Assembly: GCA_037178625.1 (NCBI GenBank)
Contig: CM074146.1
Span: 1,860,001-1,924,000 of the forward strand
Length of the DNA: 64,000 bases
Source of the DNA: Skeletonema tropicum
Taxonomy: Eukaryota; Bacillariophyta; Thalassiosirophyceae; Thalassiosirales; Thalassiosiraceae
Reading direction: 5' to 3'
The notes beneath the pieces were generated by a model. That model ran no database searches and was not told the origin of the DNA. It saw only the letters and a program-made list of their open reading frames with translations. Made by a program: the position numbers and the translations under genes. Each line of letters opens with the position of its first letter. Position 1 is the first letter of the stretch. Shown here one piece after another: positions 18,485 to 48,008 of the stretch.

Positions 18485-21400
18485 TCAAGGGACGCTGTTA
18501 GAATCGGATGTATCTGCATCACCATCTTCAAATACTTCTCCTCTTGGCTCCTCCAATTCATTCTGCATCACAGGGTACTCTAATCGCCTCGTCCCGATGA
18601 CTTGTTCCCTCATCTCAAACGCAGTCTCATCCATCGGTAATTGATTAAAGTCTTCCCCTTCATCCGCTGAATCGTCCTTTCCTGCACCCCTCTCCGAACT
18701 ATCATCTTCCAATCCGCTTGTTTGCGTAGTCACGCTTTCACTGGGCGGACTTTGACTTTGAGGGACAGATTGCGCAAGAGAATCTTGCATTTGTTGCACT
18801 ATCCCGCGGAGCATTGCAATCTCGTCGTTTTGTCTTGCCACCTGTTCTCTCTGAAGCATGAGCTCCTCCTGTTGAGAGCGTAGAATACCAAGCTCCTCCT
18901 GTTGAGACGCAATCTGAGTCTTTTGAAGTGCAATTTCCTCCTTCATTTCCTCTATTGCGCCTTCCTTTTCCGCTTCTGCTGCTTCTGAATCAGAACTAGA
19001 AGATTCCGAATCAGATGCATGTTTAGTCCACTTCGCATTCCATGCTTTCAATGAAGCAAAGATGTATTCGTCCAAATCCATCACAAACAGTACGATGACT
19101 GAATTAGCAATGATGTCAGTATTGCTTGTCGCGATTGCCTTGTTGTACACGGTACTAACCTGAACGAGGCGAGTGACAGAGTGAAGTTTAGCAAGTTTTT
19201 GCTCTCAAGCAGCATCAAGAGCAGCAAGGATCATATGACAGACGTCATTGCGACAACAACTTACATATAAGGCGAATAGCGTAATAGAACACAAGCCTAT
19301 CCCACCAATGAAATATCGAATCCTTGCTCCGAGAGAGTGTCTTCGTTTCGATGAATGGTATATCAACTTGGATCCATTAATCATGTCCTTCCTGAGATGG
19401 GCAATCATTAACATGCAGAAAATAAACCAGCCAAGACCATTCAAATCGGCTGTATCTCTGCACTCATCCGAGTCACGAGGGCATTTGTAGGTGAATTCTA
19501 TGTCGATTGAGTCATTTTGCAAGTCGGCCTCCGAAGCCATGACAAAGAAGATGAGAATTGCAACCTGTATGCCAAGTGTAGTAAAAGCTACCACCCAACC
19601 AAAAGCTTTGTCTGTTACAAAGTAAGAATACACGGAATCATTGCCGATTCTACTCATGGCATACTTGTCATCTTCTTCAGGCCTCTCTTCAATTGATCTT
19701 GTAATAGGGTTTTCCCGATTCCTATGTTTGCTGATTAGATTTAGAAAGAGGCGGACCACGCAGCTAAATGTAACGAACCCAGCAAAGAGAACAGTGGCAA
19801 ATGTGACGTAGTTAAGGCCCATTTTATTAACTTGCGTTTTCACTTGGGGATAGCAATCCTCGTTTGCGTTACCTGCAGTACAAGACGTCAATGTTGATGG
19901 AAGTGGAAGTTGCTTGGTGAGAGGTATCGTGAAGAGAGATATGAGAATCGATCAATCAAATTAGTACTCACAACACATGGTGCAATGTTCACACTCCATT
20001 GGATCTGTAAAGGCAGATGGTACGCCACAGTCTGTGACAAATGTGGATTCGTTGAACATGCTCTCGTCTAGTCGTGGTATTGCAGGCATTTCAGTAATCC
20101 TGTTGCTCTGAAGCTGAAGCAGTTGGAGCTTTGTCAACTCTCCCAAGCCTTCAGGTGCCGTTCCGGTGAAGGCATTGTAACTAAGACGCAGATAAGTGAG
20201 TTTGGAAAGTAGGCCAATCTGTGTTGGAATCGATCCCTGTGAGTGAATTGCAAGAAGAGCAATGTTGTTCGATGAGAGTTAGCAATGTCAATGCTTAAAA
20301 GTCAACAATGTGATGCACTCGTCACATATCCATATCATCACCTTGATGTCATTGTCACTCAAATCCAACTCTTCGATGGAAGGAAGGTTTCCAATGCTCG
20401 AACTCAATCTCCCCGACAAGCCATTGTTGCTAAGTTTTAGCTTTGTCACATGAGTTGCGTCCTCATTGCAAGCCACTCCGTACCAGTCGCAGCAGCTCGT
20501 ATATTCATCCATCCAATTGGTGCTATCTGTCCACTCTCCACCCTTGGCCGATTCATAAACATCACTCAAGGCATTTCGTTCGATTGGACATAACGTGGTG
20601 TCATTCGCTAGATCAAAAACTTTGACAGTACGCAAAGTACAAAGACTGAGCGGGGCAGCTTCAGATGAGTTGTAATAGAGATTACCTCCCAAGAGGATTG
20701 AAGCACCCTGAAGCTGACCAATCTGAGAAGGAATAACTCCATTCAAGTTATTATTAGACAAATCAAGGCGTTTCAAGACGCCTGCGAATAAATGACAGCA
20801 AAGGTAATAAGAAGTATTAGCACAACTGACTCGTCTACATTGTACAGCTAGACATAACTGATACTATACTCACCGTCGCGCAGTCCAAGCTCGGGAGGAA
20901 TTGTGCTGCTTAGACGGTTGCTGGACAAATCACACATTTCCAGCACTGCCATGTTTCCAATGGAGGGTGAAATAGTGCCTGTCAGCTTGTTACCGGCTAG
21001 CTTCAATACCTTGAGGGATTGTAATCTTACTAGTTCTTCTGGAATTGATCCCGTATAGCCGATTGTTTGGTTGGACAAGTCAAGCTCCTGGAGACTCAAA
21101 AAGGATCCTGCGAAATCCTGTAGCTGCCCGGAGAGGGCGTTGGATATATCGAATTGTTGTAGCTGTGGAAGATTGTTCAATGACTCTGGAAGACTTCCGG
21201 TGAGAGAGTTGGATGATATGTTGAAGTAACGCAACTGTGGAAGATCAATTATTGAGTCTGGAAAACTGCCGTAGATTTGATTGTTTTGTGCAAAGAATTT
21301 CTCAATGTTGGGCGGGATGTTATCGAGGAGGTCAGTTGTATTTATTTGGATGGCATTGTTGCTCACGTCACAAAAACGCAGTGTCTGGTAGGATCCCTTG

Positions 21401-23512
21401 TACTTTTCGAATCGACGCATAGAAGTGAAGTTGTTGTTGCTAAAGTCGGAGTGCACTATTGATGGAGTGACAAGTGCATTTATCTCTCCACTGAGCTGGT
21501 TTCCCGATACATCAAAATGTGTAAGAAAAGCAAGATTGTAGAGTGGACGATAGTCAATTGTACCTTTGAGCCTGTTACCGGCCAGGTCAACAGTCTCGAG
21601 CTTGAAAAGATTTGCCAAACCGTACCTGGGGTACTTCCCATAATTTTCTACGGTAGGAATGCCACCTAGTGTATCTGTGTTGCGCGTGTATACAGGAAAC
21701 TGGCCTGCTAGGTTGTTGTCCCTCAAGTCAATACGAGAGATACGTCCGTCATCGTTGCAAGATATCCCATACCACTGGCAATGATCTACTGTCTCATTCA
21801 TCCAACCATCATCCTTTTTCCATTTCTTCCCATCTGTTTCATTGTATATCGCCTCCAGGCTTGTCTTCTCATCATCGACGCTGGCCTTGTCAACCAAATC
21901 CTCTTCCAATCGATCACAACGATTTGTGAACTCTATGCTAGTATTCATTGCCTTCGGCTTCAACATATAATCAAATTCACGCAGAGCATAGTTGAAGAAA
22001 CTGCAGTAACACGTCGGACTGTTCGGAGAGACGAATCCTCTTGTGAGATACAAGTAATCTCCACACTCCACAGCAATATTCAGCTGCATAATCACAAGCT
22101 TCTCCCACTCCTGTATCTTCGCAAAGACGCACCCAAAAGTCGCATTTGCACTCATTATACAACCCAACAGTGTAAAGGTCTCCCCTATTATAAGAACCAG
22201 TTTCAACATGATGCTCTCCACAAGAACAAGACTCTGCTTCTTCACACAATGGTGACATGACACCATCTTTGATCCCCACAATGTCAAAGTGGTCTTGACA
22301 CGTCGACTTGTAATGCTCACACTGAAGTTGATTCAGTGAATGACAAAAATTGAATTAGTCACACAATGATCAAAATTCAAACTAAAGAATGTATCTGACT
22401 TACAGTGCGAGACCCTCCCAGTCGCAGGAGGCAAATGCAGCAGTGGGTAGTTGCTGGACCCATATCTCCTGCATTCCAGGCAGCGGAAGAACAGGCGTCA
22501 TATTCTTCATACCAATCACACCCATCACCATCTTTATCCTTCCAGTTGGACGTGTCCAAACAGAACTCCGTCGGATTAGATGAAATAGATGGAGAATTTG
22601 ATGGAGAACTTGTCGGAGAGGTAGAAGGAGTAGCTGACTTCGTTGGAAAGTTTGTGATTGTCGGAGAGTTGGTGGGAGGAAGGGAAACACTGCCCCCATC
22701 ACAATAGCAGCAATTCTCTGTTGCTGGTCCCATATCTCCTGCATAATTGTCGGCAAAGGAACAGGCGTCATTTTCTTCATAATAATCACACCCATCGCCA
22801 TCCCTATCCACCCAGTTGGGCGTGTCCAAACATGTCGTCACTGACCTCAATTCGTCGAAATTCATACGATGATTGTTACTAGCAGAAACCGACGAGGTGC
22901 CGGGAGGCGACACAACAATCGACGCTGGCAATGGACTCATGATATAACTTCGGCTTCAGGCGATGCCGCATTATCATCATCCGATAGATGTTCCCTTTGC
23001 CTTTCACGAACACGAAGAGATCTTGATGCAGACGGCGCGAATGCTGGAGGAGCTTCTCCCTCCCCCGACCCACCAATTTGATGAATTAAGGAGAGGGATA
23101 AAATCATGATTCCAAATGCGACCATCATAATCGTAATTGTCGAAATAAATCCACCGCCCGACCGTTTGGTCTTCTTACTCTTTCGCTTGGCGGCATCCTC
23201 GTCATTGTCCTGCTCGTGAGGTAGTTTATTATTATTATTATTCGCCGCCGATTCTTCCTTCTCCTTTGCAGCGGCGGCGACTGCATACTTCGGCTGCTGA
23301 TCGGATGCCGCATCATCGTCTCGCCCCGCCACTCTCTCATTGACTGAACGAACAAATAGCTCTGTCATAAGATCCTCCTTCGAAAAAGCGGCCAACTGAT
23401 TATTATTTTTGACCGCCGTGACTTCCTTCAACATCTCTTCGATGATTTGATGACGACGCCGCTCGGTCTCCGTCATTTCGGCGGCGGGGGAAGGGAGATT
23501 AGTGATGTCCAT
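18485..23512 (-). pseudogene. LRR membrane protein gene, six exons, two frameshifts
   Basis: Exons on the minus strand: 23512-22404, 22321-20874, 20781-20342, 20236-19972, 19872-19244, 19159-18485. All junctions are GT-AG and phase-consistent; the last donor (gtctgt) is weak. Order in the protein: charged N-terminal region, transmembrane helix (GFISTITIMMVAFG), two Cys-rich modules of the form C-D-x-x-N-W-x-D-x-DGDGCD-x-Y with GDMGPAT and CC-x-C, LRR-type segments such as LDLSNNNLNGVIPSQIG, four further hydrophobic helices, and a Glu/Gln-rich coiled coil with an acidic tail. The plan suggests a surface receptor-like protein. Two breaks interrupt the frame: a 2-nt insertion near 22938, relative to the paralogue at 63356, and a 7-bp tandem duplication at 22059-22072. 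It is either a recent pseudogene or a mis-assembled allele. Confidence 0.75.
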
Positions 23513-24112
23513 GATGATATTAATAAAGCGATTGAGGCTACTACTTCTCATGTTTCATGTGGAGGGCAGTTGAAAGTACTCCTACATGAACATAAGTATC
23601 AATAGATACTCCTATTGATTATATCAGTAGGTACACGTCATAGCGGTATTCATTTCTGTCTCTGGCATCAAAACGAATCTTTGTTCCAGCTTTGTTCCCT
23701 TCGTCTCGCCACTCGCCACAATCGCCTCTCTCAGACAATACGTAACAATGTATATGTATGTAGTGATAATCATCTATTCACGAGCACCAACATCAAAGGA
23801 GGTGGGAGGCCATTCTAAGCAAAGAATGCCAGTTCTCGCTCATTGAGATCTATTAATGCATTCTCCATTCTCCCTCCACCTCCACCGCCCACATCCACAT
23901 GCTATAAGTACAAGTGCATTCCGTGATGCTGCTTGGATAAGAAACATGATGAAGTAAAGGGCATCAATCAGATGGGCATTTGCTTCCATCCGCAGTGTCC
24001 CATCTGACCTATGTAAGACGTCAAGGTCAAGACATACTCCAGTCGATAATAATGATTTGTAGCTGTGTAGCCTATGCCTATGTATTGTTCACCTGACTAC
24101 CAAAACCCTGAC

Positions 24113-24470
24113 TGGGAACAGTATCAAAGCCTCGTTGGACATTCATATTGTACGCTGCAAGAAAATCCAAGTTTGAAGCCAATCAGCAGAATGGCGTCAG
24201 TAGCATCAGGGATAATCTCATGTGAAATCTCCTACCCAAATACTTCTTACTCCACCCCAGGCCCAGGATGAAAGAGTTAAATCAGTTTTGTCCCTATGTA
24301 TTTTCCACTGGAATTGGATGCAGCATTGCTGGGAACAGCATTAAAGCCAGAAGAAAGTCCAAGTTTGAAGCCAAGCAGCAAAGGGGCGTAGCATCGAGGG
24401 TAATTCATGGTGTAAGATCTCCGCTCAAGTACTTATTTCATGTGCCTGATCCCCAGGATGAAGAGTTAGT
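24113..24470 (+). repeat. Degenerate tandem duplication, two units of about 150-170 bp
   Basis: Both units share gggaacag, aaagcc, a tccaagtttgaagcca block, and end with ccaggatga followed by gagtta. Units start near 24113 and 24329. Coding potential is not convincing. Confidence 0.55.
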
Positions 24471-24565
24471 TTAGTTATTTTCCCTTGGTCTATCCATTGT
24501 TCCCATTTCCCCTGTCGTTCAGTAATCAGTTCTGTCTCTGGTACTTCCTTGAGAAGCAGATGGTA

Positions 24566-24676
24566 TATCGTAGTTTTGAGAAATGATCCAGAAGCGTGCG
24601 TTGAGTTGGAGACTGACTCGATGTCCATGTAGATATTCTCCATAGCGATCGGTATTCCATTCTGTCTCTGATTACC
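24566..24676 (+). repeat. Dispersed ~110-bp repeat, copy 2 (copy 1 at 18186-18294)
   Basis: Both copies contain tcgtagttttgagaaat, cgatgtccatgtaga and ctccatagcgatcggtattc in the same order and orientation. They lie on either side of the LRR gene. On the minus strand they encode similar peptide fragments. Confidence 0.75.
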
Positions 24677-24750
24677 CTACCCTCCCTCCCGCAAAAATGA
24701 TGTGTCCATCCCGCAAAATTTTGCCTCATTTTTCGGCATCGAGGTGGTGC

Positions 24751-24771
24751 TGGTGGATGAGTTTTAAGGAA
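24751..24771 (+). repeat. 21-bp direct repeat, left copy (right copy 26264-26284)
   Basis: TGGTGGATGAGTTTTAAGGA plus one further base is identical at 24751-24771 and 26264-26284. The copies bracket the transposon-type ORF at 25150-26091. Confidence 0.7.
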
Positions 24772-25149
24772 AAGGAGGGAGAAGAGGGGAAAAGAGAAGA
24801 GAAAAAGAAAGATCTCGCTCGACCATGTCAAAAAGTCAAAAGATCCGTAGTAGCAGTCTAGTAGTAGTCATTACTGTAGTATGCTGTTGTCGATGTAAGG
24901 TTCGCCGCCAGAGAACTTATCCCATGGACCGTCGATGATAATATTTTTGTCGAAGAAGATAATGTACGTCTGCGTGTAGAATAATAATACATCAAGAGGC
25001 ATGATTCATTTAGAAAAAGTACCGTGATGGCCTCACATGATGTGATGTAAATAACTCTATCCACATCAAGTGTGGAATGTCTCCTTCAATTATTCAATTA
25101 ATAAATAGACACAGCAGAATAATAATTATTCCCGTGAGAATGTAGCGCA

Positions 25150-26091
25150 TTACAAATGTGGCAGGCAGTATATGGAATGAGAGTCACGTAAGAGTCGACG
25201 CAGAATGCTCACTGTGTAGTATGTCTCCGTTTGGCCAACAATAACACGGCCGGCATGGTTGTCACGGAAGCAGTGGGGACCAACTCTAGCGTTTGTTTTA
25301 CAGTTCGGGCAATGTGGCATATACCTCTTATCAGTAGTTTCCCATCTTACATCAGGTAGCCAAACGTGCACATCCCTGTAGTAAGCTCTATACTCTTCAT
25401 CAAGTTTGTCTTCTTTTTTCTCTACACTTGCATTGTACTTTTTAATAAACCACGTGTACCATTCCTTTCGAAGCCACCAATCGTTCTGCTGCAGATGACG
25501 TAATAACCATTTGTTGTTGATATTTTTGTTATCTTTGCTCACCTCAATTTGCACTCGTTTTTGGACGGCTGCCACGTACCGTTGCTGGATGCCTGGAATA
25601 GTATCATCTTCAAAGTCGTCTGAATGCTTCTTTGTTGCTTCTTCTTCGCTGTAGTCCAGCTCTGCAATTGCGTTGGCAGGATCAATGACATTGTTTATTT
25701 CCGGATTATTGATAGTAACAACGTCGTAGTCAGGAGTGGCGGAATTGTTGTCGACAGCTGTGACCGCTGTTGTGGTTGAATTCTCTTCAGCGGCAGCATC
25801 AGCTCTGTCATCGGCCGACGTGTTCACGGCAGCAGCGGCAGCAGTTGTTGTCGTATCATTATTGATGGGAGCAGCAGTAGAATCACCAGATGATCGATTC
25901 GTTCGCGGGGCAAAGAAATTCATCCGTGCAGCTCTCTCGACAGCTGCCTTTTGCTGTTCCTTCTTCTTTTTATTCTTTTGTTTCGTCTCTGCGCAGCGTT
26001 CTGCTTGTTTTTTCTTTTGAGACGAAGTCTGCTTGCGTTTGGCTTTGTAGCCGTTCTTGACACCCACGGGTCTTCCTCCCCCTCTTGCCAT
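25150..26091 (-). CDS. Truncated transposon-type protein with zinc-binding segment
   Basis: 313 residues, ATG at 26089-26091. Very basic Lys/Gln-rich start (nuclear-localisation-like), Ala/Thr/Asn low-complexity linker, then a Trp-rich helical region (NDWWLRKEWYTWF). It ends in a conserved-looking block: VHVWLPDVRWE, then MPHCPNCKTNARVGPHCF and GRVIVGQTETYYT. This resembles the N-terminal 'W-x-P ... CPNC ... R-x-I' domain seen before DDE or exonuclease modules in large protist and fungal transposons (DUF6729-like, from memory). The protein stops soon after (YCLPHL), so a catalytic domain is absent. A remnant or domesticated fragment is likely. Confidence 0.5.
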   Translation of the reverse strand: MARGGGRPVGVKNGYKAKRKQTSSQKKKQAERCAETKQKNKKKKEQQKAAVERAARMNFFAPRTNRSSGDSTAAPINNDTTTTAAAAAVNTSADDRADAAAEENSTTTAVTAVDNNSATPDYDVVTINNPEINNVIDPANAIAELDYSEEEATKKHSDDFEDDTIPGIQQRYVAAVQKRVQIEVSKDNKNINNKWLLRHLQQNDWWLRKEWYTWFIKKYNASVEKKEDKLDEEYRAYYRDVHVWLPDVRWETTDKRYMPHCPNCKTNARVGPHCFRDNHAGRVIVGQTETYYTVSILRRLLRDSHSIYCLPHL

Positions 26092-26321
26092 GGTGATGAT
26101 TTAATATGTAGAGGTACCGAATCTCAAATGGTATTATGTATGCAATTATTGCAAGTGAAAGGGCCGGTGCCGACGTGAAGTACCATAGTAGGTTCTCTTG
26201 AAATTTGAAATTTGAAATGAAACCAGCGCAGTAAGTGCGCAGTGGAGCCGTGGCTTCTCTGACTGGTGGATGAGTTTTAAGGAACTCTCAATTTTAAAAC
26301 TCCTTTCAGGACTTTCTCGTA

Positions 26322-26413
26322 ACCCCTAGACATAAGATACTTATTCCATCGTACGTATGTAGACCCCTAGACATAAGCCTACTGAAGGAATAGGTACCTT
26401 ATGTCCTAGGGGT
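26322..26413. repeat. Imperfect inverted repeat (hairpin)
   Basis: Arms 26322-26347 (acccctagacataag...) and 26387-26413 (...cttatgtcctaggggt) are complementary over about 26 bp with a few mismatches. A direct partial copy (acccctagacataag) lies in the loop at 26363. Looks like a small MITE remnant or a structured RNA element upstream of the SET gene. Confidence 0.65.
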
Positions 26414-26687
26414 CTCCACCAGCACAAACTAGCTGCCCATTTTTCACCCTCACCGCTCATTCACTTCACACTTCACTTCATTCCACGCACGAAGTTGTGT
26501 TCCTCTGCCTACAATAAGTACCTACCTTGACTTGCCTTGCCTTGTGCTGCACTACAATCGCTCCAGAATCACAGAAAGAGATTAAAGAAGCGTAGGCTAT
26601 CAAGTTTGGTTGCATGCTGCTCTCCGTGTCGGCCGCTTAGTTTAAAAAGAATCGAGCCAACATAATCAAACATCAATCAACAACAAC

Positions 26688-28085
26688 ATGACGCCTCTAT
26701 CTTCCATCAGCCCACTGATGCTGCTCACAGCTGCATGCATTACATCCTCGTCATGGGCCTTTCATTCGCCCATCAACAACAACTTTCATCGACCACTCAA
26801 ATCATCCTCCAACATTCATCAACACAAATCATATCAACCATCGTCAGCCGCCCTTTTTCAATATCCAATCGACACATCCGAAAATGCCCCCCGAGACACA
26901 ATCACACTCACCGACTGGGCCATCAACTACGGCATCCAACTAGGCGAAACATTCCAACTCATCGCCACACCACAAGATGATGCCGCTCCACACGATGATG
27001 TCTATTCCATCACCAATCAAAACATTGCCGCATCAACTCCTGTACTATCCATCCCATCGAATGTTATACTTACAGGCTCACTTGCCCGCCAAGAACTTGG
27101 CCCTCAAACGTATGGAGCCGAATCATCTTTACTACTTTCGGACCATCAACCATTCTACCTCTTTTTAAAACTACTCGTCGAATATGAACTAGGAGATCAA
27201 TCACCGTGGTATTACTGGTTGAATTCACTGCCACGATATTACTCGAATGGAGCGAGTATGACGGATTTTTGCTTTGGGTGTTTGCCTCCCTATGCGGCTG
27301 GATTGGCACTGGCAGAGAAGAAGCGATATAAACAGTATGTAGAGGCGTTGAGTAACATACAGTTCTTGAGTGAGGAGTGTAAGCAAAGTGAAGAGGTGAC
27401 CAAATGGGCATTTAATGTAGTGTTTACACGATATATGGAACTGCCCGGCGGGGATTTGGCTCTAGTTCCAATGGCTGATTATTTGAATCATGGTGCCGAG
27501 CCCAATGTGGACATTTCCTATGATGACGAGGGCAATTGTTATGTGTATTCGACGAGAGAGGTGGGCGCAGGAGAACCATTGGTGTTTTCGTACGGAGATT
27601 CCACCAATCCATCGAATTTATTGGCACGGTATGGATTTTTGGATGAGAGTAGTGCTGCCACATTTTGCAAGTATGTGGTTGAAAATCCCACGATGGAAAT
27701 GTTCAATTTGGGATATCCCAACTCCATGTACTTTTACAATGATGGGAGTATCAGTAATGAGGTGTGGGACGTTCTTCTGTATGAGTTGTTGAAGGTAAGT
27801 CCCGAGGAACAACAATACTTTTATCAGGCTCACATGTCGGGTGATGAGGGGACCAAGGCATCGTATCATGATCAATACTTTGCGCAAACGTACAAATCGA
27901 TATCGAGTCATGTGGATTATATTCTGAATGAGTTGGAAGAGTTGGGGATTGGGTTGGAGATGCAGATTCGTCAGGGGCAGGATAAGAGGCGTCATCCGAG
28001 GTTACCACTCATCATGAGGCATAATGAGTTTGTCAAGGGTACTTTTGACAATGTTCGACAGAATCTTGATAACATGTATGCCTGA
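26688..28085 (+). CDS. Plastid-type SET-domain protein methyltransferase (Rubisco LSMT-like)
   Basis: 465 residues read without an intron. The N-terminus is a signal peptide ending SSSWAFHSP, which matches the diatom bipartite plastid presequence (cleavage before a Phe), followed by a Ser/His/Asn-rich transit-like stretch. SET hallmarks: MADYLNHGAEPN (the N-H motif) and GEPLVFSYGDSTN (the catalytic-loop Tyr), with LLARYGF after it, as in the LSMT/SETD6 group that methylates lysines on Rubisco, aldolase or ribosomal proteins. The C-terminal 97 codons (27795-28085) correspond to the family's substrate-binding end. They begin with gtaagt, a perfect splice donor placed after AAG (27792-27794), and are duplicated twice downstream with splice acceptors. 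Confidence 0.9.
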   Translation: MTPLSSISPLMLLTAACITSSSWAFHSPINNNFHRPLKSSSNIHQHKSYQPSSAALFQYPIDTSENAPRDTITLTDWAINYGIQLGETFQLIATPQDDAAPHDDVYSITNQNIAASTPVLSIPSNVILTGSLARQELGPQTYGAESSLLLSDHQPFYLFLKLLVEYELGDQSPWYYWLNSLPRYYSNGASMTDFCFGCLPPYAAGLALAEKKRYKQYVEALSNIQFLSEECKQSEEVTKWAFNVVFTRYMELPGGDLALVPMADYLNHGAEPNVDISYDDEGNCYVYSTREVGAGEPLVFSYGDSTNPSNLLARYGFLDESSAATFCKYVVENPTMEMFNLGYPNSMYFYNDGSISNEVWDVLLYELLKVSPEEQQYFYQAHMSGDEGTKASYHDQYFAQTYKSISSHVDYILNELEELGIGLEMQIRQGQDKRRHPRLPLIMRHNEFVKGTFDNVRQNLDNMYA

Positions 28086-28114
28086 TCCTCTTTGCATCAT
28101 GACAAATAATTCAG

Positions 28115-28405
28115 GGAACGAGTCCAGAGGAGCAACAAGCTTTTTATCAGGCTCACATGAGTGGTGATGAGGCATCAAAGCAATACTATCATGAACAATA
28201 CTTTGCACAGACTCTGGCAGTTTTACGGAAACATGTGGACTATTTGATGAATGAACTTGATGACTTATCAGAGAGTAGTTGGAGGAAAACATTTCGGAAA
28301 GACAGCCATCGTCATCCTCGATTACCTCTCATTTTGAGGCACAATAATTTTGTTAGGGAGATCTTTGAGCTTGTGCAGCGTAATCTTGATGTCATGGCGT
28401 CTTAA
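28115..28405 (+). CDS. Alternative last exon 2 of the SET-domain gene
   Basis: Starts directly after attcag (28109-28114). In phase 0 it reads GTSPEEQQAFYQAHMSGDEA and ends HPRLPLILRHNNF...LDVMAS, 96 residues. It is the same length (291 nt with stop) as the segment at 27795-28085 and clearly homologous to it. Splicing from the donor at 27795 would swap the C-terminus in frame. No ATG opens this segment naturally, which argues for use as an exon rather than a separate gene. Confidence 0.75.
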   Translation, partial: GTSPEEQQAFYQAHMSGDEASKQYYHEQYFAQTLAVLRKHVDYLMNELDDLSESSWRKTFRKDSHRHPRLPLILRHNNFVREIFELVQRNLDVMAS

Positions 28406-28476
28406 TTGATTACTAGGATTGATTTCGACAGCTAACGTTGATTGCTCTTCATCTCTATGATTCACATTTTCCCCAG

Positions 28477-28782
28477 AGCCCGGAGGATCAACAAGCGTTT
28501 TATCATGCACACATGACTGGCGATGAAGCAACAAAACAAAATTATCACGATGAATACTTTCTAGAAACACTGACAGTACTGCAAAACCATGTCGACTATT
28601 TGGTGAATGAGTTGGATCAAGCCTATTTACGGATGGAGGACCACTCAATTGTCGCTTCCATGGATGAGGGAGATGACGAAACTAGCCACCCTCGGCTGCC
28701 TCTCATTTCGAGGCACAATAACACTGTGAGAGGAATCTTGGAGCTTGTCAAGCGGTATCTCGATGGTATGGCATCTTATTAG
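28477..28782 (+). CDS. Alternative last exon 3 of the SET-domain gene
   Basis: Starts after a pyrimidine-rich tract and AG (ttttccccag, 28467-28476). In phase 0 it reads SPEDQQAFYHAHMTGDEATK and ends HPRLPLISRHNNT...LDGMASY, 101 residues. It is a third copy of the C-terminal cassette with an extra acidic insert (MDEGDDETS). It is compatible with the same donor after position 27794. Confidence 0.75.
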   Translation, partial: SPEDQQAFYHAHMTGDEATKQNYHDEYFLETLTVLQNHVDYLVNELDQAYLRMEDHSIVASMDEGDDETSHPRLPLISRHNNTVRGILELVKRYLDGMASY

Positions 28783-28840
28783 TTGAATTCTTCATGATTA
28801 AAGATCAAATGATATTGCGAATCACCTAATTTCCACCGTA

Positions 28841-30302
28841 GACCGATCTCACGATCAGCTGATCGATTTTGACCTTCTTCCTTGCATCAGAATTTTCGAG
28901 ACATTCGTTCCAAGCGTCTTGGCGCCAGTCGATTCGAATAAAATTTTAATTCGATTCGCTCTCCATCCACGAGCTCTCCACTCACGGACAGAACTCCACT
29001 ACTTAACATGACGAACAAGGTAGGCATAAGTTCAAGTATACGAACAGGATGGTCAATATCAATAATTAGTAGTAATTAGGAATTGTATTACTATCTTACA
29101 GTTTCAACATTCGTACATTCGTCCATCTTGCCTTTCGACGATATCTTGTCAATTTACACTAAGATGGTCCAGATTACGTTAGCACTCATGTAAGGATCAT
29201 TCATTTTGCACAAGGCTAAGGCGAGATTGAAATTGAAGGCACGACCCGATACGTAGCGCATTACTACACAAAAGAGACCCAGCTTCGGCGTTTGGTGCAA
29301 GATTCGCTGCTTGTTTCCTTGAGCATATATATTCGATCTACCACGTCCAATTTGTGTAACCGGCTTTCGTAGAGAAAAAGCATCTGATCTCGAGCAATCC
29401 TGATTAAGAAGAGGTGCCCATCACCGCCTCATTGCTTCAATTAGCTCTGGATAAGTCCCTGCAGTATTTGATCAAAGATTTACACCATTTGAGACCATGT
29501 GTGAATGAAAATGCGATCAATCTTCCACAAGTGAATAAATTCAATCCATTCGATACATGCCTCCGAAAATAATGCGAATGACGAATATTATCTGATTGCA
29601 GCATATTAGATTGAAGAAAGGGTGGAAACGCTCGACGAGATCATCCAATTCGAATTATTTCCACAGCAGCACTCCTCTGCGCTGAGTTCGACAGGAACGT
29701 ATCAAATTCGAATTGGTAAAACTCTGAATGCAGGCTGAATATTCGAGGGGCATATGCAATGACTTTATCCGCGAAGTTCCTATGGTGTAACAGCACCGTT
29801 TTCGACTAGTATTGTCCACCCCCCCTCGATAGATTTCGATGGAATGATCTTTTGTGGCATCTGAAGAATCCTTTTAAGATTAAAAATCCTTCTGTTGTGG
29901 TCAGCTTGGGTGGATACGAATACAAATAACGTGCCGTATTTCTTCTGGGAGATCCATCGAAAGAGACCGAAAGGGCGGCGAGATGAATGATGTCGTGGGA
30001 GACGGTAGAACCTGCACGGAAGCTGAATGGCCTACACAGGACCGATCGGGCGATAATTGAAGCACTGAATACGCACTGAAAAATTATGGGGCACATGCAT
30101 TGACGATATCAGGGAAGTTCCTATGGACTAGTAGCACCATCTTTGGTAGGTGGATGCATGTGCCCCTCATGAGATTTCAATGGACGGGGAGTGGTCGTTT
30201 AGTTAGGGGGCTTACTAGCTTTAATTTAAAATAAAGGTCTCGGGTTCAAGGTCTCGGGAATCCCAATTCAAGCGCGCCCATCAGCTGATCGTGAGATCGG
30301 TC
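28841..30302. mobile_element. 1,462-bp non-autonomous TIR element with CGTA target duplication
   Basis: Perfect 23-bp inverted ends (28841-28863 and 30280-30302) starting GACCGATCTCACGATCAGCT. They are flanked on both sides by CGTA (28837-28840 and 30303-30306). The end contains a palindrome, atcagctgat. Inside, two diverged direct subrepeats of ~90 bp share gaagttcctatgg and nearby blocks (about 29745-29840 and 30084-30180). No coding capacity. Superfamily unknown; several groups make 4-bp duplications. Confidence 0.85.
30190..30262 (+). other. Possible tRNA-like (Pol III box) sequence
   Basis: The stretch ggtcgtttagttaggggg resembles an A box, and gggttcaaggtctc about 45 bp later resembles a B box. 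No full cloverleaf folds by eye. It may be a tRNA-derived SINE-like remnant inside the TIR element. Confidence 0.2.
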
Positions 30303-30306
30303 CGTA

Positions 30307-30755
30307 ATTTTTGGTAAGTAGAGATTGAGAGTGCTAAATACATTGAGTAGGATGTGGTCCCATACAGGTGTGTAGCCTAGGCCGTCTCCCATCATCTTCT
30401 CTGTATCTGAGGGTTACATATCCGAGCCTTAGCGGGAGTTACGTAAGGATGTATTCCATCCTGACCAAATACAAGTGAAGATAAGGGTGGTTTGGGAGAG
30501 AGAGGGACTATCTTCGGTGGCTTGCTAGCTAGGGCTAAGCTGCCTCTCTTACTCTTGTACCTTCTTGTACTGTTGCTTGCTGTTTTGGCCAATCTTCTCT
30601 ATCTCTACAATATACAGGGACATTCACATGATTAGAGGATTGTCGAGCGCTAATGACGGAATCGTCATTTGCCACAAAGCAGCTTTGGTAATTGAAACCT
30701 ACTACTCAATTATCGAGTCTTGCCCTCTTCATCTTCATCATTAGTTGTTCGATGC
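30307..30755. other. Intergenic stretch, no supported gene
   Basis: Short open frames only (for example 30392-30592 minus). No domain or repeat recognised. Confidence 0.45.
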
Positions 30756-42300: not shown

Positions 42301-45300
42301 ACATGAAACAGGCATTTGCACAGACTGCCACCATATCATTAGTGGTGTTCAGTTTGCAAGTGATCCAAGTCATACACAACTGAGCCTTCGAACTATCTCA
42401 TTCCGTGGGTTTGAGCCACACTTTGATGGAGCAATTGATTACGACATTCTTGCATTGAGGCTGTGGTTTGCGTTTCCAGGCTTTCATGGGTCGGGTGGTA
42501 AGTCAATCATATCTTCGTCAGTATTTCATGCAGGTTGCTCTACATCATTATCTCACGATCACGATGATTTTTGTTTGCACTTGCACAGGCACAATTCTCC
42601 ATGGTGGTGATACACGCTTCTGGAACATGCCTTCTCTTGAGGGAGTGACTATTAGTTCCCCCGATAACGGCTTTGACTTTGAAGGTCAACTTCTCATTGA
42701 TCAACCAGGTGAGTAAAAATAACAAGATGCATCTTCGTATGACTTTGGTTTCAATTCATCTTCCAGCTTCTAACAAGAGCTCTTTCCTTCGACGGGCACA
42801 CGTGCACAATATAGCAAAAATGCACGGGTATTTTCAGGACGTCAATGGTACATTTCACGTGGACGGACCAGGCGTATTCATCCCGCAAGACTCGTCTGGG
42901 ATGGTGCCTAATGCCCCCGAGTTCTCGTTTCTGGCAGATCATCGCTGTAACAAAGCAAATTCTAGACCCAACTCGTTTGCACTTTTTTGTGCTGGATCTT
43001 GTATTCGCAAAGGTAAGTCACATGTGCACCTACCTCATGATCACACTACATGCATCTTGCCATGATTGACACCACTATTTTTCTTCTTTCATGTGAAAGT
43101 GTTTGTTCATAGCAATTGTCCTGGGGACCTATTCGTAACAAGTACCTCAACCAATGAACAGTCATCCTTCCCTCCAACTCGATTTCGAACCCTGACAGCA
43201 GGTTGGGGAATGGACTACGACGAAACAGTATGGTCAACCAAACTGCATGTAGCTTTCCTCTCCAATGATGACTACCAGCTTAGCTGCAAAACTGAAAGTG
43301 GAGACATTTTCAGCCCCAAGTTTATGAGGGTGACCTTTGACGGCCGAACTTACCAAATCAGGAACAATAATAATTGCTGTAAACCTGGCTGGTATGATAT
43401 GAATTTTGCCAGGCCCCCTCCATCGTGTACCCCTTACGTAGATCAAGGATCATTTCAACTGCCAGCAGTGCCTCTGTACCAACATTTTGAGGCAAATGAA
43501 TTTGTACATTACTGGAATCAAGCTGATGTAGATGGTATCAGGCTTAAGGATCATCAATTTGGTGGCGCACGTTATGGTCCTGTAAATTTTGGTGCATCAG
43601 GCGAATCTCGTGCTGTACTCGTAAATTGGAAAAGCCTTACCTCTTGGGTTAGTGTAGAAATGAAACTTGACGATGGGACATTGATTGGTAAGGTCAGTCA
43701 GGCTGATGCGGGTATCGAGAGTGCTATGGAAATAGATATTCCTCCAGAAGTCAGCGGCATTCATGAAGTGATCTTTACAGCCCACAGATTCGCTGGAACT
43801 CATCATTTTGCCAAGATTTTTTCATTTGAAATTCTTCCTCCACTTCCAACCACATCACCAACAATGAGTTCTGCCCCTACAATGTCGCTGGTGCCCACCA
43901 AGCCGGCGATAGACATTGTCTTCACGCCCAATGACAATAATCAATGGTTCCCATTTGGCCCTCATACGCTCAAGGACACTGGTGAGCTTACGTTTTCTGT
44001 CAAAGCAACAAATGATGCTCATGTTGCCTTAGGTTCAGCTACGGATCAACCTACCGGTCGTGATGTACCCAGTCATGTGGAAATTTTCATTGGAGGATGG
44101 GGCAATTCACGTTCTGGCATTCGTCCTGCCACAGGCGATGTGAATAACCAAGTTGAAGTAGGTGGAGCCTATCTTAGTGGCAGTGACTACAATACCTTTC
44201 GCATTACCTGGTCACCAACTGAAATCAAGCTCGAACACTTGTCGCTTTGCGGTACATGGGTCGCTATGGTGAGCATGGATCGAAGCTCGTTGGACATCAT
44301 CATTGATCGTGCGATTGTAATGACTGGCTGGGATAGCACTGGAGAGTTTCAGCTTGTCAAGGACCCACCAACACCGTCCTGTGAGGCTGGTACTGTCCTC
44401 ACACCCAATGACAATAATCAATGGTTCCCATTTGGCTCTACACTTGAGGACACTGGTGAGCTTGCGTTTTCTGTCAAAGCAACAAATGATGCTCATGTTG
44501 CCTTAGGTTCAGCTACGGATCAACCTACCGGTCGTGATGTACCCAGTCATGTGGAAATTTTCATTGGAGGATGGGGCAATTCACGTTCTGGCATTCGTCC
44601 TGCCACAGTTGAAGTAGGTGGAGCCTATCTTAGTGGCAGTGACTACAATACCTTTCGCATTACCTGGTCACCAACTGAAATCAAGCTCGAACACTTGTCG
44701 CTTTGCGGTACATGGGTCGCTATGGTGAGCATGGATCGAAGCTCGTTGGACATCATCATTGAGCGTGCTCTTGTAATGACTGGCTGGGATAGCACTGGAG
44801 AGTTTCAGCTTGTCAAGGACCCACCAACACCGTCCTGTGAGGCTGGTACTGTCCTCACACCCAATGACAATAATCAATGGTTCCCATTTGGCTCTACACT
44901 TGAGGACACTGGTGAGCTTGCGTTTTCTGTCAAAGCAACAAATGATGCTCATGTTGCCTTAGGTTCAGCTACGGATCAACCTACCGGTCGTGATGTACCC
45001 AGTCATGTGGAAATTTTCATTGGAGGATGGGGCAATTCACGTTCTGGCATTCGTCCTGCCACAGGCGATGTGAATAACCAAGTTGAAGTAGGTGGAGCCT
45101 ATCTTAGTGGCAGTGACTACAATACCTTTCGCATTACCTGGTCACCAACTGAAATCAAGCTCGAACACTTGTCGCTTTGCGGTACATGGGTCGCTATGGT
45201 GAGCATGGATCGAAGCTCGTTGGACATCATCATTGATCGTGCTCTTGTAATGACTGGCTGGGATAGCACTGGAGAGTTTCAGCTTGTCAAGGACCCACCA

Positions 45301-46746
45301 ACACCGTCCTGTGAGGCTGGTACTGTCCTCACACCCAATGACAATAATCAATGGTTCCCATTTGGCTCTACACTTGAGGACACTGGTGAGCTTGCGTTTT
45401 CTGTCAAAGCAACAAATGATGCTCATGTTGCCTTAGGTTCAGCTACGGATCAACCTACCGGTCGTGATGTACCCAGTCATGTGGAAATTTTCATTGGAGG
45501 ATGGGGCAATTCACGTTCTGGCATTCGTCCTGCCACAGGCGATGTGAATAACCAAGTTGAAGTAGGTGGAGCCTATCTTAGTGGCAGTGACTACAATACC
45601 TTTCGCATTACCTGGTCACCAACTGAAATCAAGCTCGAACACTTGTCGCTTTGCGGTACATGGGTCGCTATGGTGAGCATGGATCGAAGCTCGTTGGACA
45701 TCATCATTGATCGTGCTCTTGTAATGACTGGCTGGGATAGCACTGGAGAGTTTCAGCTTGTCAAGGACCCACCAACACCGTCCTGTGAGGCTGGTACTGT
45801 CCTCACACCCAATGACAATAATCAATGGTTCCCATTTGGCTCTACACTTGAGGACACTGGTGAGCTTGCGTTTTCTGTCAAAGCAACAAATGATGCTCAT
45901 GTTGCCTTAGGTTCAGCTACGGATCAACCTACCGGTCGTGATGTACCCAGTCATGTGGAAATTTTCATTGGAGGATGGGGCAATTCACGTTCTGGCATTC
46001 GTCCTGCCACAGGCGATGTGAATAACCAAGTTGAAGTAGGTGGAGCCTATCTTAGTGGCAGTGACTACAATACCTTTCGCATTACCTGGTCACCAACTGA
46101 AATCAAGCTCGAACACTTGTCGCTTTGCGGTACATGGGTCGCTATGGTGAGCATGGATCGAAGCTCGTTGGACATCATCATTGATCGTGCGATTGTAATG
46201 ACTGGCTGGGATAGCACTGGAGAGTTTCAGCTTGTCAAGGACCCACCAACACCGTCCTGTGAGGCTGGTACTGTCCTCACACCCAATGACAATAATCAAT
46301 GGTTCCCATTTGGCTCTACACTTGAGGACACTGGTGAGCTTGCGTTTTCTGTCAAAGCAACAAATGATGCTCATGTTGCCTTAGGTTCAGCTACGGATCA
46401 ACCTACCGGTCGTGATGTACCCAGTCATGTGGAAATTTTCATTGGAGGATGGGGCAATTCACGTTCTGGCATTCGTCCTGCCACAGGCGATGTGAATAAC
46501 CAAGTTGAAGTAGGTGGAGCCTATCTTAGTGGCAGTGACTACAATACCTTTCGCATTACCTGGTCACCAACTGGAATTGCGTTAGAACACTTGGCAGGAT
46601 GCGAATGGGTCCATATGGCTTGGATGGGTCTAAGCTCGTTGAACGTCAGCATTGATCGTGCTCTTGTAATGACTGGCTGGGGAAGTACTGGGGAGTTCAT
46701 TCTTATTCAGAGTGGCCTACCATCGTCCTGTGATGCCTCTTCCTAG
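39353..46746 (+). CDS. Secreted CEMIP/TMEM2-like protein with C-terminal Methyltransf_FA repeats
   Basis: Ten exons: 39353-39869, 39963-40076, 40172-40672, 40788-41338, 41425-41726, 41833-41917, 42008-42497, 42589-42708, 42767-43012, 43100-46746. Together they encode 2,190 residues. All junctions are GT-AG and in phase. A signal peptide (LLTVLATTTTTANA) leads. About residues 110-230 look like an F5/8 C (discoidin/fucolectin) domain (CYDSPASNAINGD, WWMVDFG). A G8-like beta-rich region follows (GETVEIPRGINVEGMLYF). The right-handed beta-helix has the CEMIP-type block PIHFHLCDDVSGS and GHCFMTEDGVETGNMF, then STYWISNQNNQ and GFWIDGG. A CBM6-like domain lies near residue 1100 (HFEANEFVHYWNQ). Residues ~1250-2190 are six Methyltransf_FA-type repeats. 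CEMIP and TMEM2 act on hyaluronan in animals; here a cell-surface or matrix polysaccharide role is inference. Confidence 0.88.
43924..46746 (+). repeat. Six near-identical 474-bp coding repeats
   Basis: Unit starts: 43924, 44401, 44857, 45331, 45805, 46279. Lengths are 477, 456, 474, 474, 474 and 468 bp. Unit 2 lacks 18 bp encoding GDVNNQ. The inner units differ by only a few substitutions, for example GCGATTGTA versus GCTCTTGTA near each unit end, while the first and last are more diverged. Each unit is a Methyltransf_FA-type domain (core ATNDAHVALGS, EIFIGGWGNSRSGIRP, FRITWSPTEIKLEH, MTGWDSTGEF). This domain type is thought to bind glycans or ligands; despite the name, no methyltransferase motif is seen. 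Confidence 0.95.
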
Positions 46747-47045
46747 GTTGATTTTACTCGCCAAAAGTTCTATAAAATTAGAATTACAAAGTCAGAGTAG
46801 TATTAGTTTTTCCATCGTAGATAGATGAATCCTTTCAATATCTTCATTGCCCTGTGCTCTAGCTAAAGTGGTGCAAGAATCAGGGAGGCATGATACTCAC
46901 AGAAATAGAACCATGTGGTGCAAGAGGCGTGGATGAGATAGAGAGACGAATCGGAAACAAGAAAACATGTTACGTGTTGTACCCTTACAAGACCACTTCG
47001 ATTTGAATCTGACTGATACGCACCTCGACCTCGATCCATATATCC

Positions 47046-47388
47046 ATATCATAATATCACTCAGGAAATTAGGTAAATGTTGCATTATCGCTACCTAGAC
47101 ATCATTGAACCAACAATTGGAGTGTTCATACGCCGAGGGCAGAACCAAACAGCGTCGCAGTTGGAACCACGGGAGAGGGTTGTCTCTGTTACCACTACCA
47201 CAGCTCGTTTTATAGAGCCCGGGATATGATATTGATACAGATTTCAATAAGCCTGAATACAGGCGAGATATAAAAAGTGTTTGCATGAGAGTATAAGCAT
47301 ATACCTATCTTTATCCTTGGTTGTTTTGACCGCGTCGAAGTGCGCTTGCGCCCGCTGGTGGAGTATCAATATCAAGAAGGCATCACAT
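47046..47388 (+). repeat. ~340-bp dispersed repeat, copy 1
   Basis: Matches the reverse complement of 62509-62840 almost end to end, including ggaaattaggtaaatgttgc and ttttgaccgcgtcgaagtgc. No ORF. Possibly a MITE or SINE family member. Confidence 0.85.
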
Positions 47389-47982
47389 GCTGCTCTCACT
47401 GATACAGCAGCCAATAAGCCTGATGCTCACCAGAAGTTGTTTCGAGATTATCAAGATTGATTTCCATCAAATATTTATCCTCCTCCCCTAGCCCTTCTAA
47501 GCCCATCTCTTGCTGCTCCTCAATAGCTATTTGTAACTCCTCCTTCCTCTCTAACAACTAACGCAAGCATACCCGGAATTTTATCATGAATCAAGAAATT
47601 CCTCACCATGACCAGCCATTGTCCATGTCCATGTGTCCATGTGTCATCTCCATCAGCTTGATAGAGAAGCTTTGTGCCCATTTTGCGCCAGAAAGATAGC
47701 TGCCCCCCCAGATGACAATGTAACTCTTGAATCGCAAAAAACTCCTTGGATATCATTCCTTCCATAAACCACCGCCATCCGATCTGTCTTCTGAAAGTGC
47801 TAACTTCTGCAATGTGGGGTCTCATGATTGCCAGAAATGCAGGGCTTGCCCGAGCAATGGTCGGTATTTTTATAGTAATGATGGTACCGATCGATGCAAC
47901 TTGAAGAGAGCTTTCCAACAGTGGTCATATTGTATTTTGGTCAATATTGGACCTTGGCACCAGCACCGGTGGATTTTCAAGC

Positions 47983-48008
47983 TGTCGGTGTCGGTGTCGG
48001 TGTCGGCG
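47983..48008 (+). repeat. (GTCGGT)n run
   Basis: About four hexamer units. Confidence 0.85.

Follow-up and report, generated by a model that had tools for sequence, protein, structure and literature searches.

In a 64,000-nucleotide stretch of the genome of the diatom Skeletonema tropicum (hereafter, the window), a SET methyltransferase gene ends in three homologous tandem C-terminal coding blocks (cassettes), and at least the first two of them probably serve as alternative last exons, selected by intron retention versus splicing (probability roughly 0.84). For cassette 3 the same use is somewhat better than an even proposition. This reading is supported by the relatives of the cassettes, by a conserved acceptor codon and conserved donor residues, by purifying selection, and by a spliced gene model of Cyclotella cryptica. 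The phase-matched alternative last exons proposed in the first-pass annotation are thus well supported by comparison, more weakly in the case of cassette 3, whose acceptor is lost in a second copy of the locus.

Organization of the locus

The genome carrying the window comprises 78.39 Mb in 125 contigs, and all features described here lie on the forward (+) strand. The common part of the gene (26691..27794) consists of 368 codons, with an ASAF-like presequence and a SET domain, and is closed by the sequence AAG|GTAAGT (27792..27800), a candidate splice donor located inside the unspliced reading frame. Cassette 1 (27795..28085), which would be used if the donor were left unspliced, reads VSPEEQQ... 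and encodes the type 1 C terminus of 96 amino acids, followed by a TGA stop codon (28083-28085). A spacer of 29 nucleotides (28086..28114) ends in aattCAG, the putative acceptor of cassette 2, recognized from the sequence and from the glutamine that precedes the cassette in its relatives. Cassette 2 (28115..28405) encodes the type 2 C terminus, 96 amino acids followed by TAA. A second spacer of 71 nucleotides (28406..28476), containing a pyrimidine tract, ends in ccccAG, the putative acceptor of cassette 3, for which the sequence and the comparison with the second copy were considered. Cassette 3 (28477..28782) encodes the type 3 C terminus, 101 amino acids with an acidic linker, followed by TAG. 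Relative to cassette 1 (VSPEE), cassette 2 starts one codon earlier (GTSPEEQQ...) and cassette 3 one codon later (SPEDQQ...).

The first-pass annotation had placed the three copies at 27795-28085, 28115-28405 and 28477-28782, and sequence, repeats and open reading frames (ORFs) agree on exactly these limits. What it had said of their structure was also borne out: neither cassette 2 nor cassette 3 opens with an ATG, and the first Met of each lies further inside, within AHM; the attcag and the pyrimidine tract plus ccag directly before them were found as aattcag and ccccag; all three cassettes join in phase 0 to the AAG at 27792-27794, cassette 1 opening with GTAAGT; the three frames are intact; and the core HPRLPLI-x-RHN is present in all three. 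Each of these terminal blocks is closed by its own stop codon and is open on the + strand in this frame only, the remaining two frames containing 3 to 12 stops each. The repeat finder detected a 142-nucleotide block in three copies (with 70% and 77% identity of the other two to the reference) and a 92-nucleotide block in three copies (66% and 77%); an identity of 66 to 77% across blocks of this size rules out a chance repeat. At the amino acid level, identity is 0.60 between cassettes 1 and 2, 0.63 between cassettes 2 and 3, and 0.50 between cassettes 1 and 3.

If the AAG|GTAAGT donor were ignored, translation would read through into cassette 1 and stop there, and cassettes 2 and 3 would become 3' untranslated RNA. 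Since only 29 nucleotides separate the first stop codon from cassette 2, the cassette 1 message most likely continues through cassettes 2 and 3, as a true retained intron. Joining the donor to the first acceptor would remove an intron of 320 nucleotides and yield a protein ending in cassette 2, and joining it to the second acceptor would remove 682 nucleotides and yield a protein ending in cassette 3. A single nuclear gene would in this way encode a SET-domain protein methyltransferase, presumably plastid targeted, with interchangeable C-terminal lobes, which may change the partner, the target or the stability of the enzyme. We infer that the window gene is spliced as proposed in S. tropicum itself, isoform 1 being the retained-intron message.

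Downstream of the array, perfect 23-nucleotide terminal inverted repeats lie 1.46 kb apart (28841-30302), flanked on both sides by CGTA. This element, which looks like a transposon-like insertion, begins 59 nucleotides after cassette 3, and the second copy of the locus carries its arms as well. Elsewhere in the window, positions 20001-23520 are multicopy (158 genome matches), as are positions ~47040-47842, where 38 of the 40 matches listed are at 84 to 85%.

Enzyme class and predicted targeting

The SET domain (PF00856) was found in the window protein with an E value of 5.2e-7 and, at E <= 1, in 56 of 57 scanned proteins, the window protein included. The Pfam Rubisco LSMT substrate-binding domain, which we take to be PF09273, gave no match in the window protein at E <= 10 and is absent from the 22 families that the 57 proteins matched at E <= 1; membership in that family is therefore rejected. 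The overall fold, including the C-terminal helical region, is the same as in the LSMT/SETD3/SETD6 class. The earlier description of the enzyme as LSMT-like accordingly stands for the SET domain and the shared fold, and does not extend to the Pfam LSMT substrate-binding domain, undetected in the 57 proteins. The swapped piece corresponds to the last, distal helices of the SETD3/LSMT-like fold, and the exchange of this putative substrate-binding end appears structurally reasonable.

The enzyme had also been called a plastid SET methyltransferase. We regard the gene as nuclear, judging from the genome that carries it, so that "plastid" can only mean plastid targeted. The N terminus of the window protein reads SSSWA|FHSP, and this ASAF-like presequence motif suggests that the product is directed to the plastid; the SET domain part of the designation is confirmed. 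A loose pattern (a hydrophobic stretch followed by A|F close to the N terminus) occurs in 84 of 113 sequences, the window included, although some of these occurrences are plainly misplaced (P0002, P0009).

Cassette types and their relatives

For the comparison with other proteins, we used the best 120 of 485 matches to the whole protein and the best 120 of 210 short matches to the cassettes. Among the matches listed, the closest named protein is P0001 of Skeletonema marinoi, with 84% identity, and a shorter match, P0011, is 96% identical to the window protein. The tree of the C-terminal domain was built on 248 sequences, 5 of 253 domain matches being left out for short coverage, and type groups were defined as the common ancestors of tips picked after viewing the tree. 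The window cassettes fall in three groups, namely, type 1 (n = 55), type 2 (n = 74) and type 3 (n = 16), with node supports of 0.73 for type 1, 0.006 for type 2 alone, 1.00 for type 3 and 0.93 for types 2 and 3 together. In this sequence tree, type 1 is thus separate from types 2 and 3, and type 3 forms a firmly supported clade. Type 2 alone is unsupported and may be the stock that gave rise to type 3.

Type 1 is found in named proteins of Skeletonema, Thalassiosira and Cyclotella, type 2 in named proteins of Thalassiosira and Cyclotella and in the source genome of the window, and type 3, among the matches listed, only in the window and 15 other sequences. Type 2 members are mostly stand-alone ORFs (64 of the group of 74), as are all 15 type 3 relatives. 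Eight full-length proteins have a type 2 end (P0010, P0015, P0031, P0043, P0046, P0048, P0057 and P0089). A region-based search with isoform 2 gave 8 matches from 34 candidates, with P0010 and P0015 being of type 2, and neither these 8 nor the best 120 of 485 whole-protein matches contain a full-length protein with a type 3 end. The linker of type 3 is acidic, with a charge of -5 to -7 in all 13 linkers that could be parsed among its 16 members (53 of 55 were parsed for type 1 and 68 of 74 for type 2). Moreover, P0046, P0048, P0057 and P0089 lie outside the type 1 SET clade and have type 2-like ends; type 2 being poorly supported, this faintly suggests that it may be nearer to the ancestral end. 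Scans of viral contigs with the cassette and full-length alignments found no relative.

Two subtypes of type 2, EFSWKKD and VFSWQTD, are represented in two Cyclotella species (P0031, P0142) and in further relatives (P0138, P0198, P0238). Taken across species, they suggest that the array may have been enlarged separately there. Of the proteins labeled Cylindrotheca closterium, a pennate diatom, P0026 falls among the type 1 proteins and P0091 outside them.

Splice signals in the window and in related sequences

The donor AAG|GTAAGT and the acceptors aattcag and ccccag are all in phase 0 and mutually compatible. The donor alone proves little, because neither GTA nor AGT is unusual as a codon in this setting (0.187 of Val and 0.221 of Ser codons, respectively) and AGGTAAGT occurs three times in the window, against 1.2 expected. 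The pyrimidine tract of the cassette 2 acceptor is poor, which counts against the alternative-exon reading, and another in-phase AG upstream of cassette 3, at 28430-28431, is a further candidate acceptor.

The stand-alone type 2 and type 3 ORFs that extend upstream of the cassette have dissimilar upstream residues, yet of 35 informative ORFs 30 show Gln immediately ahead of the cassette, the others having Lys (2), Ser (2) or Tyr (1). The 35 remain from 41 ORFs examined, 2 without a recognized cassette head and 4 with a start codon at this position being set aside; the head pattern was written after the sequences were seen, and the ORFs counted are mutually related. Since a phase 0 CAG acceptor reads as Gln, the residue is compatible with CAG at this point. 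For the type 3 cassettes in particular, Gln stands directly before the cassette in 10 of the 11 ORFs read upstream.

On the donor side, the junction could be read in 52 type 1 proteins, 35 of which show the motif [KQE]V[SN] there, compared with 5 of 89 other proteins. The junction Val fits a donor, because Val is encoded by GTN, as the donor requires. The 17 remaining type 1 proteins do not have Val followed by Ser or Asn at the junction, and 12 of them form one subclade of the SET tree, perhaps representing a gene without a cassette array. One joined-exon pattern, searched in the S. tropicum genome itself, gave no match; such a junction would exist in RNA only.

Transcript-level evidence

For S. 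tropicum, the genome paper states that both full-length (PacBio) and short-read RNA were sequenced (PMC11032307). In the comparison with relatives, P0031 corresponds to CCRYP_010569-RA of C. cryptica, a two-exon model with a type 2 end, whose name gives no intron position. Its quality string is 164/1/1/1/0/0.5/2/544/443 and, if this has the standard MAKER meaning, as we assume, all its splice sites are transcript confirmed. According to the published account, assembled RNA-seq served as EST evidence in the C. cryptica annotation (PMC7466962). The nearest sequence to P0031 in the SET tree is the type 1-ended P0013 of Cyclotella cf. meneghiniana (support 0.93), and identity between them falls from 80% before the junction to 46% beyond it.

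Among the MMETSP sequences, P0015 represents a transcript with a complete type 2 ORF, which could derive from a species where the type 1 cassette was lost. P0194 represents a transcribed type 3 cassette whose ORF is short and opens at an internal Met, and it fits an unspliced message better than a spliced isoform 3. The estimated identity to isoform 1 is about 92% for isoform 2 and about 88% for isoform 3. Database clustering at 90% could therefore hide isoform 2 and need not hide isoform 3, the absence of which counts mildly against it.

Constraint on the cassettes and second copy of the locus

The differences among the cassettes are concentrated at third codon positions (0.50 to 0.60, with 0.28 to 0.39 at first and 0.17 to 0.27 at second positions). 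The dN/dS comparison that had been proposed as a check indicates constraint, with ratios of 0.07 to 0.23 where computable and dS saturated: 0.23 (NG86) and 0.07 (maximum likelihood, ML) for cassettes 1 and 2, 0.16 (NG86) and 0.17 (ML) for cassettes 2 and 3, and 0.08 (ML) for cassettes 1 and 3. YN00 gave no value for any pair, and NG86 gave none for cassettes 1 and 3. As read from these substitutions, the divergence of the cassettes bears the mark of purifying selection.

The same genome contains the locus a second time, in inverted orientation, at C20:682825-683950, with 98.8 to 99.5% identity across ~4.5 kb. In the common coding part, the two copies differ at 15 sites (10 nonsynonymous taken singly, 6 of these within codons 1 to 22). 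Across the three cassettes there is one difference, which is synonymous, and the frame of cassette 3 is open in both copies. The two spacers also show one difference, an A-to-G change at 28475, which in the second copy turns the CAG before cassette 3 into CGG, with loss of the acceptor AG. Isoform 3 is probably not made from this second copy.

On a larger scale, parts of the window (20001-30340 and 44850-48000) match an inverted near-copy on C20, ~1.2 Mb away (G000:C20:664511-690459, minus strand), with 97 to 99.5% identity where aligned; it could have arisen by segmental duplication or be a haplotype that was misplaced. Paralogs of this genome on C2, C3, C7 and C19 read through the junction point in one frame. 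Two nearly identical SET methyltransferase paralogs are located in tandem, ~1.9 kb apart, at C5:1126000-1133000.

Cassette arrays in related diatoms

The suggestion that the same array be sought in related species led to co-occurring cassette types in three kinds of evidence: a single gene model, consecutive gene tags and equal sizes of host contigs, from which placement on the same contig was inferred. In Thalassiosira sp. AJA248-18, P0010 holds types 1 and 2 in tandem in a single gene model. P0013 and P0142 are consecutive genes of Cyclotella cf. meneghiniana (ACHAW6_006100 and ACHAW6_006099). Among the 229 matches with a listed contig size, 16 size groups hold more than one match, and 9 groups of at least 2,437 bases each combine different cassette types from a shared source. 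Six of these nine combine type 1 with type 2: P0007/P0127, P0013/P0142, P0039/P0240, P0050/P0172 and P0094/P0149, together with P0051/P0129/P0157, which also includes type 3. The other three (P0123/P0140, P0131/P0148 and P0151/P0236) pair types 2 and 3. Equal sizes also arise by chance, seven groups under 2,000 bases lacking such a pattern and the group of 5,549 bases including P0166 from other sources. Furthermore, the junction Val-Ser is present in the type 1 members of all six sets with types 1 and 2, and in P0010. On these comparisons, the array appears to be more widespread than the window alone could reveal.

Weighing of alternative explanations

If cassettes 2 and 3 were relics of a partial tandem duplication, transcribed as 3' untranslated RNA and unused in protein, the missing start codons at their heads would be expected, P0194 might be an unspliced message of this kind, and the annotation of the Cyclotella cassette P0142 as a separate gene would be in keeping with it. 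However, the low dN/dS and the open frames, the many relatives of types 2 and 3 with a conserved Gln at the acceptor, and the spliced C. cryptica model with a type 2 end make this improbable. A narrower form of our preferred explanation, and compatible with it, restricts the functional alternatives to cassettes 1 and 2, with cassette 3 as a later addition decaying in at least one copy. The few type 3 sequences (the window plus 15), the acceptor lost in the second copy and the absence of full-length type 3-ended proteins among the matches listed all speak for it, and make isoform 3 the least secure of the three; the frame that is open and identical in both copies, the Gln before 10 of 11 type 3 cassettes and the acidic linker conserved in all 13 parsed cases speak against decay, and we hold this restriction to be unlikely, while giving it more weight than any other alternative.

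Homologous tandem cassettes beside a single expressed copy could also recall DNA cassette switching, in which cassettes 2 and 3 would be silent templates replacing cassette 1 by gene conversion. We reject this, as scarcely credible: the two-copy comparison reveals no exchange among cassettes, the tree keeps type 1 apart from types 2 and 3 (supports of 0.73 and 0.93), and the conserved splice signals would be left unneeded. Joining in series, cassette 1 and then cassette 2, would produce a protein with two C-terminal lobes, as P0010 is modeled; but that is a single gene model, the name of which states no transcript support, P0010 is the only one of 242 proteins listed with two such domains, and each window cassette closes with a stop codon, so that we find serial joining very improbable.

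Returning to the alternative last exons, their origin was probably a tandem duplication of a 3' end containing AG|GT, in which case phase-matched donor and acceptors would arise by the duplication itself. It is possible to hypothesize, tentatively and at a little under even odds, that Skeletonema, Thalassiosira, Cyclotella and related diatoms redirect a plastid methyltransferase to other targets through its RNA: the message would be either retained unspliced or spliced at one donor, in a regulated manner, and this choice would select among long-conserved C-terminal lobes, one of them with a strongly acidic linker (type 3). On this view, the arrangement originated in AGGT tandem duplication, and the Skeletonema and Cyclotella lineages each expanded it independently.

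Comparison with known systems

To our knowledge, alternative splicing in diatoms has been more often tallied than tied to protein function. Intron retention is described as prominent in Phaeodactylum tricornutum and as varying with conditions; different from the present case, that study is a genome-wide tally, the main text of which does not contain the terms "mutually exclusive" or "alternative last" (PMC5859163). The Nannochloropsis LSMT study concerns aldolase methylation, and the string "alternative splic" is absent from the portion of it considered here (PMC11012178). In the titles and abstract openings of the open-licence literature, covered by partly loose searches, no tandem alternative last exons of diatoms were described. 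If the proposed reading is true, the locus would be a compact and conserved case in which intron retention is not noise but the default coding state for one isoform, and it would offer, in an enzyme linked to the plastid, a switch that can be tested directly. It also illustrates how annotation can misname such exons, the Cyclotella cassette P0142 having been entered as a gene of its own.

With respect to LSMT, SETD3, SETD6 and PAP7/pTAC14, identity is 13 to 18%, the Pfam LSMT substrate-binding domain is undetected and the C-terminal end would here be interchangeable. Tandem exon duplication with alternative exons, mutually exclusive or last, is known in animals. The array resembles those systems in having homologous tandem exons in the same phase, one of which would be used per mRNA; unlike them, the first alternative would be a retained intron, with the donor at its coding start and no acceptor of its own.

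A further parallel is the model of intron gain by tandem duplication of an exon segment containing AGGT, named in PMC4974935. As in that model, the proximal GT and the distal AG derive from one site that is present twice, and the phase is kept: the proximal AG|GT and the distal AG occupy a homologous site here, AAG|GTAAGT compared with CAG|GGAACGAGT. In the AGGT duplication model, the original protein is restored. Different from this, both copies at the present locus stay coding and specify different C termini, which makes the array a plausible example of tandem duplication creating alternative exons that are already in phase.
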